Below, piece by piece: positions 2,175 to 38,276 of a stretch of 38,734 nt of DNA. Each line of letters begins with the position of its first letter. The stretch's first letter is position 1. Under the pieces are notes generated by a model, which saw only the letters and a list, made by a program, of their open reading frames with translations, made no database searches and was not told the origin of the DNA. The stretch is from Candidatus Saccharimonadota bacterium. Its GTDB lineage: Bacteria; Patescibacteriota; Saccharimonadia; Saccharimonadales; Saccharimonadaceae. Both the position numbers and the translations under genes were made by a program. The stretch spans positions 1 to 38,734 of the forward strand of contig JAFWJE010000011.1 in assembly GCA_017511685.1 (NCBI GenBank), in the 5' to 3' direction.

Positions 2175-3991
2175 TTATCGTCGCGTTTGAGCATAACGGT
2201 GAAGGCCTCGGATGGGATGTCGATTTTGCCGAAACGTTTCATGCGGGCTTTGCCACGCTTTTGCTTTTCTAGGAGCTTGGCTTTGCGGTCACGGTCGCCG
2301 GTGTGGATTTTGACGGTGACATCTTTTCTGTAGGCGCCGATGGTTTCCCTAGCGATAATGCGGGCGCCGATGGCAGCCTGGATGGCGACTTCGTAGTTTT
2401 GGCGCGGGATGACTTGCTTTAACTTTTTGGTGATTTCGCGACCCAAAGCGTCGGCCTCGGAACGGTGGCACATACAAGCGAGCGCGTCGATTTTTTGGCC
2501 GCCGACTAGAAAGTTAACGCGCACTAAATCCTCGGCGCGGTAATCGGCTAATTCGTAATTAAAACTGGCGTAGCCGGAAGTGGTGGATTTTAATTGGTCG
2601 TAAAAATCGGTGAGGAGGTTAGCCATTGGCGCTTCAAAGTCAATAACGGCGCGGTCTTCAATGTAGCTGAGATTGGTCTGGTGTCCGCGTTTTTCTACGA
2701 TGAGATTTAGCACGCCACCAATCATGTTTTTAGGAACAATGATTTCGCCTCTCACCCACGGCTCGCGGATTTCTGCAACCTCGGACATATCGGGCAAATC
2801 GGCGGCGGATTTGATTTCGATTTCCTCGCCGGTGGCGAGTTTGACTTCATAATTAGTAGAAGGGTTGGTGACGACGAGATCTAAATTATACTCGCGCTCT
2901 AGGCGCTCTTTGATAATATCCATGTGGAGGAGGCCCAAGAAACCAATGCGAAGGCCAAAGCCTAAAACTGGCGAATTTTCTGGCTCGTACTGGAGGGCGG
3001 AGTCGGAAAGGGAGAGTTTTTCGATGGCTTCTTTTAAGGTTTTATAATCTTCGTTGGATACTGGGAAAAAGCCGGCATAGACAAATGGGAGAACATTTTT
3101 ATAGCCGGGAAGCGGCGTGCTGGCGGGCTGCTTTTTTAATGTAACAGTATCGCCAACTTTAGCCTCACGCGTGGTTTTTAAGTTAGTGACGATGTAGCCG
3201 ATTTCGCCTTCTTTTAGCTCGGTTTTTGGCGACATAGTCGGCTTTAAAATGCCGACTTCTAGAGCAAGCCCGGCGGTGTCTGCTGCCATCATTTTAATCT
3301 CGGCGTTCTTTGGCAAGTGGCCGTCCATGATGCGGACGTATAGAACTACACCGCGATAGTCGTCAAAATAGCTGTCAAAGATTAGCGCGCGCAGAGGATT
3401 AGAACGCAAAGTCGCTCCTCGTTCACTCGGAGGACTTTGCGTTTTAGCCCTTGGAGCAGGAGCTTTGTCGACGATGGCGTCTAGGACCTTTTCGACGTTT
3501 TGACCGGTCTTGGCGGAAACGCCAATAATATCCTCGCGCGGGCAACCTAAGAGATTAACAATTTGGTCTTTGACTTTTTCAACGTCAGCGGCGGGGAGGT
3601 CGATTTTATTAATGACGGGGATGATATAGAGGTCTTGTTCCAAAGCAAGGTAGACATTAGCAAGGGTCTGGGCTTGAATACCCTGCGTGGCGTCCACAAC
3701 TAAAATAGCGGTTTCAACAGCTTGGAGACTGCGGGAAACTTCATAAGAAAAATCAACGTGACCGGGAGTGTCGATGAGATTAAGCTCGTAACCTTTATAA
3801 TTCATTTGAACTGGCGTGAGTTTAATGGTAATGCCCTTTTCGCGTTCTAGCTCCATACTATCTAGGAGCTGGGCTTTCATTTCACGTTTTTCAACGGTGT
3901 CGGTCAATTCCATCATGCGGTCGGCAAGAGTGGACTTGCCGTGGTCGATATGGGCGATAATACAAAAATTACGGATTTTATCGGTGTTCAT
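2171..3991 (-). CDS. lepA: LepA / elongation factor 4, translational GTPase
   Basis: EF4 is a ribosome-binding GTPase affecting initiation and back-translocation. All G motifs are visible: AHIDHGKS (13-20), DTPGH (73-77), NKID (127-130) and SAK near 159. The C-terminal LepA-specific domain is complete (VTVKIHTGDRDRKAKLLEKQ, ending near EAFTVMLKRDDN). Length (606 aa) is normal. Between the G domain and the RALIFDSYFDDYRG strand there is an extra segment of about 15 residues encoded by a DNA palindrome (3403-3443). The gene is divergent from tilS with only 18 bases between start codons, and its -10 box ends 8 bases before the ATG. Confidence 0.96.
   Translation of the reverse strand: MNTDKIRNFCIIAHIDHGKSTLADRMMELTDTVEKREMKAQLLDSMELEREKGITIKLTPVQMNYKGYELNLIDTPGHVDFSYEVSRSLQAVETAILVVDATQGIQAQTLANVYLALEQDLYIIPVINKIDLPAADVEKVKDQIVNLLGCPREDIIGVSAKTGQNVEKVLDAIVDKAPAPRAKTQSPPSERGATLRSNPLRALIFDSYFDDYRGVVLYVRIMDGHLPKNAEIKMMAADTAGLALEVGILKPTMSPKTELKEGEIGYIVTNLKTTREAKVGDTVTLKKQPASTPLPGYKNVLPFVYAGFFPVSNEDYKTLKEAIEKLSLSDSALQYEPENSPVLGFGLRIGFLGLLHMDIIKERLEREYNLDLVVTNPSTNYEVKLATGEEIEIKSAADLPDMSEVAEIREPWVRGEIIVPKNMIGGVLNLIVEKRGHQTNLSYIEDRAVIDFEAPMANLLTDFYDQLKSTTSGYASFNYELADYRAEDLVRVNFLVGGQKIDALACMCHRSEADALGREITKKLKQVIPRQNYEVAIQAAIGARIIARETIGAYRKDVTVKIHTGDRDRKAKLLEKQKRGKARMKRFGKIDIPSEAFTVMLKRDDN
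3403..3443. repeat. Palindromic element inserted in frame in lepA
   Basis: AACGCAAAGTC (3403-3413), one unpaired G, CTCC, a 10-base loop, GGAG, then GACTTTGCGTT (3433-3443): 15 base pairs with one bulge. It encodes roughly residues 183-196 of LepA (KTQSPPSERGATLR), a region that other LepA proteins lack at this spot as far as I recall. The frame is kept. Confidence 0.75.
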
Positions 3992-7860: not shown

Positions 7861-9243
7861 TCAAGGTGGGGTGCAAGCATAAGCAGGAGATTTTGATTTT
7901 TGGCGACGGACGATGAGGGCGATAAATGGCACAACGATGAGTGGCGCATAAAGCAGAAAAACTAGCGGATTGTATGGATCTGTAGCGATGAGAAAAACTT
8001 TAGTGGAGGCGAAAAAATTGGCGACGGACATTTGATAATCTAAGAGGAGTAAATCTAATTTGGAAATAATGGTAGCAAGCGGTGTGAGATTAGTGGCGGC
8101 GGCGAGGCCGGTGAGTAGCGTCAGCCCCATAATAATAGAAACCGTGGGAAGGATGAGGAGATTGGCAATAATGGAGATAAGCGAGATTTGACCAAAAAAG
8201 AATAATAAAAGTGGTGAGCAAGTGAGTGTGGAGGCAGCGGAAGTAAGTAAGGTGCTGGCTAAAAGCCCCGGCCGTTTGTCTTTGCCGTAGAAAAATCTGG
8301 CAAGGGCGGGGGCGACAACAAGGATGCCGGTAAACGCGGCAAAGGACAGGAGCCAAGCAGGGTCCGTGAGATAATTTGGATTGTAAATTAAAGTGGCGGC
8401 GGCCACAATAACGATGAGGCGGACCGGCCGGACGTCACGACCAAAATACCAAGCTAGAAGTGTTAGAAAAGTCACCAGCCCAGCGCGGAGCATACTGGCG
8501 GAAAGGCCGGTGATGCTGATAAAGCCGATAGCAAGAAGGGCGGAAAGCAAGAGCGCCGCAAAACGCGAGAGGTGCTTGCCTAACTTTTTGGCGAGGCCGG
8601 TGAGGATGCCGAGGTGCGTGCCGGAGGCAACGATGATATGCGTGAGGCCGACCGTCCTTAAGGCGTCTTGGAGGTTTTGGCTGACACCGGATTTTTGGCC
8701 GAGCAGATAGCCGATGGCGAGACCGGACTGTGGCTCCGGCAAGTAATTTCTGATGTGCTCCGCGAAAAAATCGCGGAAGGCCAAGAAAGGATCTGGCGGA
8801 TCCTGACGCTTAATTTCTTTGGTGGTAGAGCGATAGATAGCGGCGGCATAATTACCAAAACCGTTTTGCAATTCCCCTTCAACAGTGATAATGTCGGTGC
8901 GCTTTAGGTCTTTATCAGCTGTTTGAGCAAAAATCTGGATGCCATCCGGAAGCGTATCGGCCGCCAGTGCGACGTGGCTAAGCGTTAAATTATACTTGCC
9001 GTCGCCGGAACTACTTTCGGCGGGGTCTTTTATAATGGTACCGGTAAGTGTGATGGTCTGGCCGAATAATTCTAGAGGAAAAATATCGCTAGAATTTTGC
9101 CCGTTTCTAGTGATTGCTATAAAGATGTTGGCGATAATGACACTGATGGCAAGCAATAAAAAAGCCCAAGAGGGGTGTGGTAAATGATGGTGTTTTTTGG
9201 CGCACTTTTTGGCAAGGGATGGGCGGCGCGCCCGTACTGGCAT
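7861..9243 (-). CDS. comEC: ComEC/Rec2-family DNA uptake channel, short form
   Basis: ComEC carries transforming DNA across the cytoplasmic membrane. Residues 27-48 form a membrane segment, 55-150 a DUF4131-like OB domain (TITLTGTIIKDPAES), and from about 170 the competence channel: SGLAIGYLLGQKSGVSQNLQDAL then GLTHIIVASGTHLGIL, the family signature. About eight further membrane helices follow. The 460-aa protein ends after the channel; the C-terminal metallo-beta-lactamase domain found in longer ComEC proteins is absent. It is transcribed in the same direction as recA but behind its own -10 box. With pilB further on it implies natural competence. Confidence 0.88.
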   Translation of the reverse strand: MPVRARRPSLAKKCAKKHHHLPHPSWAFLLLAISVIIANIFIAITRNGQNSSDIFPLELFGQTITLTGTIIKDPAESSSGDGKYNLTLSHVALAADTLPDGIQIFAQTADKDLKRTDIITVEGELQNGFGNYAAAIYRSTTKEIKRQDPPDPFLAFRDFFAEHIRNYLPEPQSGLAIGYLLGQKSGVSQNLQDALRTVGLTHIIVASGTHLGILTGLAKKLGKHLSRFAALLLSALLAIGFISITGLSASMLRAGLVTFLTLLAWYFGRDVRPVRLIVIVAAATLIYNPNYLTDPAWLLSFAAFTGILVVAPALARFFYGKDKRPGLLASTLLTSAASTLTCSPLLLFFFGQISLISIIANLLILPTVSIIMGLTLLTGLAAATNLTPLATIISKLDLLLLDYQMSVANFFASTKVFLIATDPYNPLVFLLYAPLIVVPFIALIVRRQKSKSPAYACTPP

Positions 9244-37312: not shown

Positions 37313-37389
37313 TGGTATCTCCGGCGTGATTCGAACACGCGACCTTTTGGTTCGAAGCCAAACGCTCTAATCCACTGAGCTACGGAGAC
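37313..37389 (-). tRNA. tRNA-Arg (anticodon TCG)
   Basis: Acceptor GTCTCCG/CGGAGAT (one G-U pair), D stem GCTC/GAGC, anticodon stem TTTGG/CCAAA with loop CTTCGAA, T stem GCGTG/CACGC, discriminator A and encoded CCA. The anticodon UCG reads CGA and probably other CGN codons. Confidence 0.95.
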
Positions 37390-37399
37390 ACTTGGATAT

Positions 37400-37405
37400 A
37401 TTATA
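37400..37405 (-). promoter_or_regulatory. Extended -10 box of tRNA-Arg
   Basis: TGC-TATAAT on the minus strand, 10 bases from the tRNA 5' end and 5 bases from an inverted-repeat arm. Confidence 0.68.
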
Positions 37406-37410
37406 GCATA

Positions 37411-37553
37411 GAAACTGAATGAACACCCTTTCCTAGCCAGCAGGACTTGTTCGTAGATAAAAATTACAACACTAGATGTGTTGTAATTTTTACACTCACA
37501 AATCTGGTCTAAATCTCATTATGCTGGCTAGGAAAGAGTATTCATTCAGTTTC
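37411..37553. repeat. Long inverted repeat between divergent tRNA-Arg and queH promoters
   Basis: Arms 37411-37442 and 37522-37553 are 32 bases each with 30 matches. Each arm ends 5 bases from a TATAAT box facing outward, so the promoter upstream region is duplicated in inverted form. The two mismatches become G-U pairs in a minus-strand RNA. The centre holds another hairpin (37458-37492). Confidence 0.85.
37458..37492. terminator. Central 15-bp hairpin, possible bidirectional terminator
   Basis: TAAAAATTACAACAC pairs with GTGTTGTAATTTTTA around TAGAT. U-runs occur on both strands but the stem is A/T-rich. It could stop transcription coming from either side or form a cruciform with the outer arms. 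Confidence 0.5.
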
Positions 37554-37555
37554 CG

Positions 37556-37564
37556 TGATATAAT
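37556..37564 (+). promoter_or_regulatory. Extended -10 box of queH
   Basis: TGA-TATAAT ending 7 bases before the ATG at 37572. Confidence 0.7.
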
Positions 37565-37571
37565 TATCGTA

Positions 37572-38276
37572 ATGAAATTGTTGCTTCATACTTGCTGTGC
37601 GCCGTGCAGCGTATATTGCATTAAGAGCTTGCGGGCAGAAGGGATTGAACCGACGCTTTTTTGGTATAATCCAAATATCCATCCGTATGCGGAGTATAAG
37701 GCGCGGAGAGATTGTTTGAAAGAATATGCCGCTTTAGTGGGGGTGGATTTGATTTTGGAAGATTTTTACGGGCTGGATAAGTTTGTGTGCGAGGTGGCGA
37801 AGCTAGTGGCGGAGGGTGGCGCCGATGCTACTGATGCTGCCGGTGTGTTTTCTGCGCGGTGCGCGGAGTATTGTTATCCGCGGCGGCTAAGGAAAGTTTT
37901 TGAATATGCTGCGGAAAATGGCTATGATGCGGTGTCAACGACTTTGCTGTATAGTATTTACCAGCAGCATGATGTGATACGAGAATTGTGCTCTGCTCTA
38001 GCGCGCGAATTTGGCGTGGAATTTATGTACCGAGATTTTCGCAAAGGCTGGGCCGAGGGGCAGACAGAAGCGCGAGCCGCTGGGCTGTATATGCAAAAAT
38101 ATTGTGGGTGTGTATTCTCGGAAGAAGAGTCGTTTATCGGACGGGAAATTTCTAGGGATTTGCGCCGAACCGGCGTGTCACCGACAAATGCGGAGGTGAG
38201 GAAAGTCTTGGAAAAGGCAAAGGCTGAGGGGGAAGTTGAGTTGGGGGAAGTTAAGAAAGTTGCTAAAAAGAGCTAA
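37572..38276 (+). CDS. queH: QueH-type epoxyqueuosine reductase
   Basis: QueH carries out the last step of queuosine formation, reducing epoxyqueuosine in tRNA with an iron-sulfur cluster. The 234-aa protein has the N-terminal HTCCAPCSVY motif (C8, C9, C12), then PTLFWYNPNIHPYAEYKARRD, DFYGLDKFV, AARCAEYCYPRRL-like SARCAEYCYPRRL, STTLLYSIYQQHD, and the C-terminal YCGCVFSEEES that completes the cysteine set. The frame is open upstream across the inverted repeat, but 37572 starts right at the conserved strand and 7 bases after the -10 box. A basic tail (KKVAKKS) extends it slightly. Confidence 0.9.
   Translation: MKLLLHTCCAPCSVYCIKSLRAEGIEPTLFWYNPNIHPYAEYKARRDCLKEYAALVGVDLILEDFYGLDKFVCEVAKLVAEGGADATDAAGVFSARCAEYCYPRRLRKVFEYAAENGYDAVSTTLLYSIYQQHDVIRELCSALAREFGVEFMYRDFRKGWAEGQTEARAAGLYMQKYCGCVFSEEESFIGREISRDLRRTGVSPTNAEVRKVLEKAKAEGEVELGEVKKVAKKS

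Follow-up and report, generated by a model that had tools for sequence, protein, structure and literature searches.

Inverted repeat between tRNA-Arg and queH

The window analyzed here, that is, the whole stretch of 38,734 nucleotides, contains divergently oriented genes for tRNA-Arg and QueH, so named in the earlier note and confirmed in our analysis (anticodon TCG for the tRNA), with a long inverted repeat between them (Table 1). The two 32-bp arms are complementary at 30 of the 32 positions and stop 5 bases short of TATAAT boxes, one at 37400-37405 (minus strand) and the other at 37559-37564 (plus strand); enclosed by the arms is a second, perfect hairpin of 15 bp (37458-37472 paired with 37478-37492). 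At the two mismatched arm positions, the plus strand has C opposite A, so that G-U pairs can form only on the minus strand. This geometry, first described in the earlier note, was reproduced in full, and the repeat extends to 43 nt on each side (37400-37442 and 37522-37564, 88%). The palindrome scores 28; none of 30 Markov-simulated windows exceeded 13, and the remainder of the window gave 15, which excludes chance. Its score is also the highest among the five long palindromes in the approximately 437 kb of the same genome that were read. The folding z-scores of the element are -12 and -14 for the plus and minus strands, respectively.

Table 1 Features of the tRNA-Arg/queH intergenic region (positions in the window).
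Feature	Position	Strand	Remarks
tRNA-Arg (TCG), neighbour	37313..37389	-	
Native extended -10 promoter of tRNA-Arg, TATGCTATAAT	37400..37410	-	Matches an over-represented promoter 11-mer of the genome
Left locus-specific arm	37411..37442	.	Differs in the G049 orthologue, where the other arm is changed to match
Conserved core, short form, 79 nt	37443..37521	+	Covariance model match, E 4.1e-18; aligned with 24-28 other short copies
GGACTT, 5' end of short core	37443..37448	+	Invariant in 28/28 aligned short copies
Apical 15-bp hairpin P3	37458..37492	.	Formed by two incomplete copies of the palindromic box TGTTGTAANNNTTACAACA that face each other
AAATCTGGTCTAAATCTCATTA, invariant 3' end of short core	37500..37521	+	Last 17 bases are the search tag
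Right locus-specific arm	37522..37553	.	30/32 complementary to left arm
Native extended -10 promoter of queH, TGATATAAT	37556..37564	+	7 nt before ATG
queH (epoxyqueuosine reductase), neighbour, probably leaderless	37572..38276	+	Pfam E 1.3e-54

A family of dispersed hairpin elements in one genus

With the region as the query, the sequence enclosed by the arms was found again in relatives, more than 10 times in genome G021. The 17-mer tag TGGTCTAAATCTCATTA is present in 31 of the 80 genomes of the genus (the reversed control, in none), and a covariance model of the core matched 32 of the 294 genomes of the class, all from a single genus of the 127, one that takes in contigs labelled Candidatus Nanosyncoccus alces. 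We gathered 94 distinct copies, with a median arm of 29 nt and a core that comes in a short form (70-87 nt) and a long form (about 119-139 nt); short copies do not vary in GGACTT and AAATCTGGTCTAAATCTCATTA, and long copies likewise keep the parts GACTT and TGG-T-AATCTCATTA. Positions 37411-37553 are one copy of this genus-restricted, dispersed element, which consists of a conserved core hairpin flanked by locus-specific, complementary arms. It is well supported that the element belongs to a previously undescribed family of DNA repeats that form hairpins and occur in a single genus of tiny Saccharibacteria. Among the three explanations put forward in the earlier note, a repeat element came closest: the many copies unrelated to promoters that the note took as a sign of such an element do occur in relatives. 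It is not an ordinary MITE, because in some genomes the arms are not common to the copies.

Exact matches to the 17-mer in Pelagibacter, Shewanella, viral contigs and other sequences are due to chance, the core being absent there. Arrays in G018 and G021 in which the 17-mer and the right arm are repeated look superficially like CRISPR; in G021, the second spacer turned out to be the same arm in degraded form, and the arrays are thus tandem duplications. Within the genome stretches that were read (the rRNA genes possibly lie outside them), the tag, examined as a 16-mer, was complementary to nothing beyond the element itself. One contig labelled Methanobrevibacter (L144, JAFRFB010000086.1) bears a Saccharibacteria khpB gene along with the element and is probably mis-binned.

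Locus-specific arms that change in concert

In a sister species (G049), the core, GGACTTGTTCGTAG...CACTCACAAATCTGG, is near-identical at six loci and is enclosed at these loci by six unrelated, near-perfect arm pairs; the core stems are 0.80 identical within genomes compared with 0.65 between genomes. The same species is the nearest relative found (QueH 89% identical) and the sole one that shares the tRNA/queH locus, where the window has the inner arms CTTTCCTAGCCAGCA/TGCTGGCTAGGAAAG and G049 has CCATGCCGGACGGCA/TGCCGTCGGCATGG: most inner-arm pairs are altered on both sides, and the flanks are about 80% identical. Two-sided changes were detected in all 15 aligned P1 arm pairs (40 long copies), and over the whole structure, two-sided cells number 377, whereas shuffles gave 108 and slid controls no more than 124. 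Such changes could also come from purifying selection on pairing.

Unlike in G049 and G021, arms are common to several copies in the G087 and JAFRAU genomes and, hence, can travel with the core. Copies also have in common an arm composition profile, TGCT..AAAA..TTTT, which suggests that some of the arm has been inherited or is under selection as a terminator. The same site in L166 and L171 has matching flanks and homologous arms with the core pointing the opposite way, which represents either inversion of the spacer or, alternatively, replacement of the core, given that the two cores belong to different sub-types. Tandem duplications of the right half (tag and right arm) in G018, G021 and G049 suggest replication slippage at the hairpin. 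Taken together, the element shows matched arm changes lacking G-U intermediates, as well as probable spacer inversion, as expected of inverted repeats that are maintained by template switching.

Location at gene ends and transcription termination

By simple ORF calls, 41 copies lie between convergent genes, 41 between tandem genes (20 in one orientation and 21 in the other), and 5 between divergent genes. Most copies are located 15-40 nt from stop codons; the flanking stop codons are usually contained within the arms, and an arm may even contain the last codons of the gene (for example, at L098). At positions 16-20 of the right arms, T makes up 51-69% on average, so that the combination of a hairpin and a U-tract following a gene is found on average over the copies, whereas the window copy has no clear U-tract and follows no gene. 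Considering the location at gene 3' ends and the T-rich tracts in the arms, many copies probably act as two-way transcription terminators or barriers.

It is possible, albeit doubtful, that the elements are nothing but bidirectional intrinsic terminators, in which the core rides, as a passenger or an enhancer, in the loop of ordinary terminator stems formed by the arms. Apart from the stop codon distances, the 41 convergent contexts and the T content, this interpretation is favoured by the finding that the tsf and khpB ends that bear the element in some species carry plain terminators or palindromes of other families in others. However, many arms, including those in the window, have no U-tract, and five copies are divergent; moreover, examined orthologous sites that are free of the element lack the palindrome. 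Specifically, in the window's genome, there is none at L140 and L129, and a palindrome of a different family is present at L117; these sites do not polarise insertion versus loss.

Pairing at the DNA or RNA level

The arms contain 41 G-U compared with 66 A-C cells among about 2,860-3,000 pairable cells, and in the A1 core stems, the two are about equally frequent (19 G-U and 22 A-C). In tRNA stems of the same organisms, there are 81 G-U among 1,120 pairs, a set for which A-C is not comparable because ARAGORN reports paired cells only. With respect to tandem genes, the orientation of the element is unbiased, and downstream of tsf, both orientations occur. The paucity of G-U pairs and the lack of orientation bias fit arms that are kept identical at the DNA level.

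These observations weaken the suggestion of the earlier note that the repeat might be a structured RNA. A cis-acting or small RNA with stems under selection for RNA pairing would account for the strong covariation, the invariance of the loop-like AAATCTCATTA, and the GGACT/GGTCT helix, which has fixed plus-strand G-U pairs and three G-to-A changes that preserve pairing. Nevertheless, G-U in the variable stems is not commoner than A-C and has roughly one-fifth of the frequency seen in tRNA stems, the 20 to 21 split among tandem genes persists as an objection, neither neighbour of the window copy transcribes the element, and Rfam searches of the window and relatives yielded no match to it above the gathering score. 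We therefore view an RNA function as unlikely.

Native promoters of the flanking genes

The commonest over-represented words in the window's genome are 11-mers of the TATGCTATAAT type, which implies that the two -10 boxes at this locus are promoters of the ordinary extended -10 type. Across most genomes in the genus (queH loci L042-L070), TGNTATAAT is kept 6-8 nt ahead of the queH ATG, so the queH box is native and the mRNA is probably leaderless; relatives likewise have their own -10 boxes at tRNA-Arg (TCG). The arm sequence TTCATTCAGTTTC was not found upstream of either gene in relatives, among which only G049 has the locus. The statement in the earlier note that one promoter-upstream region exists twice holds as a description of the sequence but not as a duplication, and the proposal that a promoter was copied fails: both boxes are orthologous to those of relatives and conserved in place, and neither derives from the other. 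A regulator site common to the two genes, also suggested in the note, has indirect support, in that the palindromic box in the core occurs on its own as well, mostly just past gene stops. Altogether, an inverted promoter duplication or a shared operator is highly improbable, even though the arms stop at equal distances from both boxes and P3 resembles a stand-alone 19-bp palindrome with 8 perfect occurrences in 437 kb, because the boxes are native, relatives lack the arm, the stand-alone palindrome lies mostly directly after stop codons or within ORFs rather than at promoters, and the element elsewhere lies away from promoters. The window copy, probably an insertion between two pre-existing divergent extended -10 promoters, is atypical in this location and, at most, would insulate them from each other.

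Candidate movers and a template-switching model

No transposase, reverse transcriptase or other gene was found to track the element across the genomes of the genus. The Y1 transposase (PF01797) is encoded in 2 of the 80 genomes (G040 and G057), neither of which is a carrier by the tag, and reverse transcriptase is present in 22 of the 31 carriers versus 29 of the 49 non-carriers, with none in G049, a genome with nine matches. Overall, reverse-transcriptase domains were detected in 51 of the 80 genomes of this genus, all of which are very small. Among the copies collected, there was no long, autonomous one containing an ORF, and the empty sites are too diverged for target site duplications (TSD) to be read.

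Based on the comparison of copies, we consider it reasonably probable that the family consists of a mobile or recurrently inserted core hairpin with arms that are written and corrected by template switching, residing mostly at gene 3' ends, where many copies would probably serve as two-way terminators. Under this model, the core would be the mobile or recurrently inserted part; its stems would let single-stranded DNA fold back during replication; template switching of the polymerase between the flanks would rewrite one flank so that it becomes the reverse complement of its partner; and the same process would afterwards keep correcting the arms. According to published work (PMC8604942, PMC8794818), template switching between inverted repeats homogenises their arms, inverts spacers and gives rise to hairpins. 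The writing of the arms by replicative template switching is likely, and this process would account for arms reaching into coding ends, matched changes of several bases, inversion of the core, and tandem duplication of the right half. More doubtful is the possibility that this is a new kind of mobile DNA, in which only the core moves and, on arrival, writes its own site-specific inverted arms from the flank of the target. If the template-switching model is right, a conserved dispersed repeat would be tied to a mutational process that is usually regarded as sporadic, and the constant core with its varied arms would provide natural replicates for the study of palindrome growth, correction and gene-end rewriting in very small genomes. 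Strong two-sided covariation, then, need not imply an RNA structure under selection.

Relationship to known repeats

REP, BIME and REPIN sequences, which are mobilised by RAYT (Y1) transposases, are, like the element described here, short, dispersed, intergenic and hairpin-forming, and lie near gene ends. The arms of the present element are, unlike those of REP and REPIN, locus-specific, and the rare Y1 transposases of the genus occur outside the carriers. With MITEs, the element has in common the non-coding, multi-copy character and inverted ends; however, the same core is associated with different arms in G049 and G021, so that terminal repeats are not common to the copies there (they are in G087 and JAFRAU), and no autonomous partner was found. 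Intrinsic terminators similarly have a stem at gene ends and a T-rich tract but not a conserved core of 70-139 nt, and the element does not require a gene end, as the window copy demonstrates. Mitochondrial repetitive hairpin-forming, or double-hairpin, elements also come as lineage-specific bursts of ORF-less intergenic hairpins, with a mover that is unknown (PMC2800124), whereas here, a long invariant core lies within arms that are unique to each site. Quasipalindrome correction and template-switch mutations (PMC8794818, PMC8604942, PMC7202029) likewise yield perfect arms, matched changes of several bases and inverted spacers, but they are known as sporadic mutations rather than as a trait of a conserved repeat family.

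Other palindromes and repeats

The TGTTGTAANNNTTACAACA palindrome also exists as a stand-alone box, in many cases 4-15 nt past a stop codon and in some cases within an ORF; a putative protein that binds it is possible. The pattern GTTGTA-N5-TACAAC has 13 sites in 437 kb (positions 143-161 of the window and 12 others), about half of them just after stops and three in ORFs. Three other contigs of this genome (L039, L232, L312) have at their ends the first approximately 142 bases of the window, each copy running up to TGTTGTAANNNTTACAACA, which has a mismatch in one of them; the segment 1-161 is a repeat with multiple copies, at which the assembly breaks.

Several other families coexist with the core-hairpin element. 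A second palindrome family, TGCTCACGTCA...AATCAGTCTG, has several copies in the window's genome (L239:2050-2252; L308, about 8000-8229), including one at a site where the sister species bears the core-hairpin element. A third repeat, about 130 bp long, is present at L346, L347, L348 and L349 of G021; its arms are nearly identical, and it shares the GTAAAAATTACAAC hairpin. At least two further families of long palindromes, one ending in TTGGGCTCGTTCAATGC and one with CTTTTCGGGGACGGGTC, occupy gene ends; loci of such further families are L276, L285, L290, L296, L297 and L298 (downstream of tsf), along with L247, L256, L262, L266, L270 and L275.
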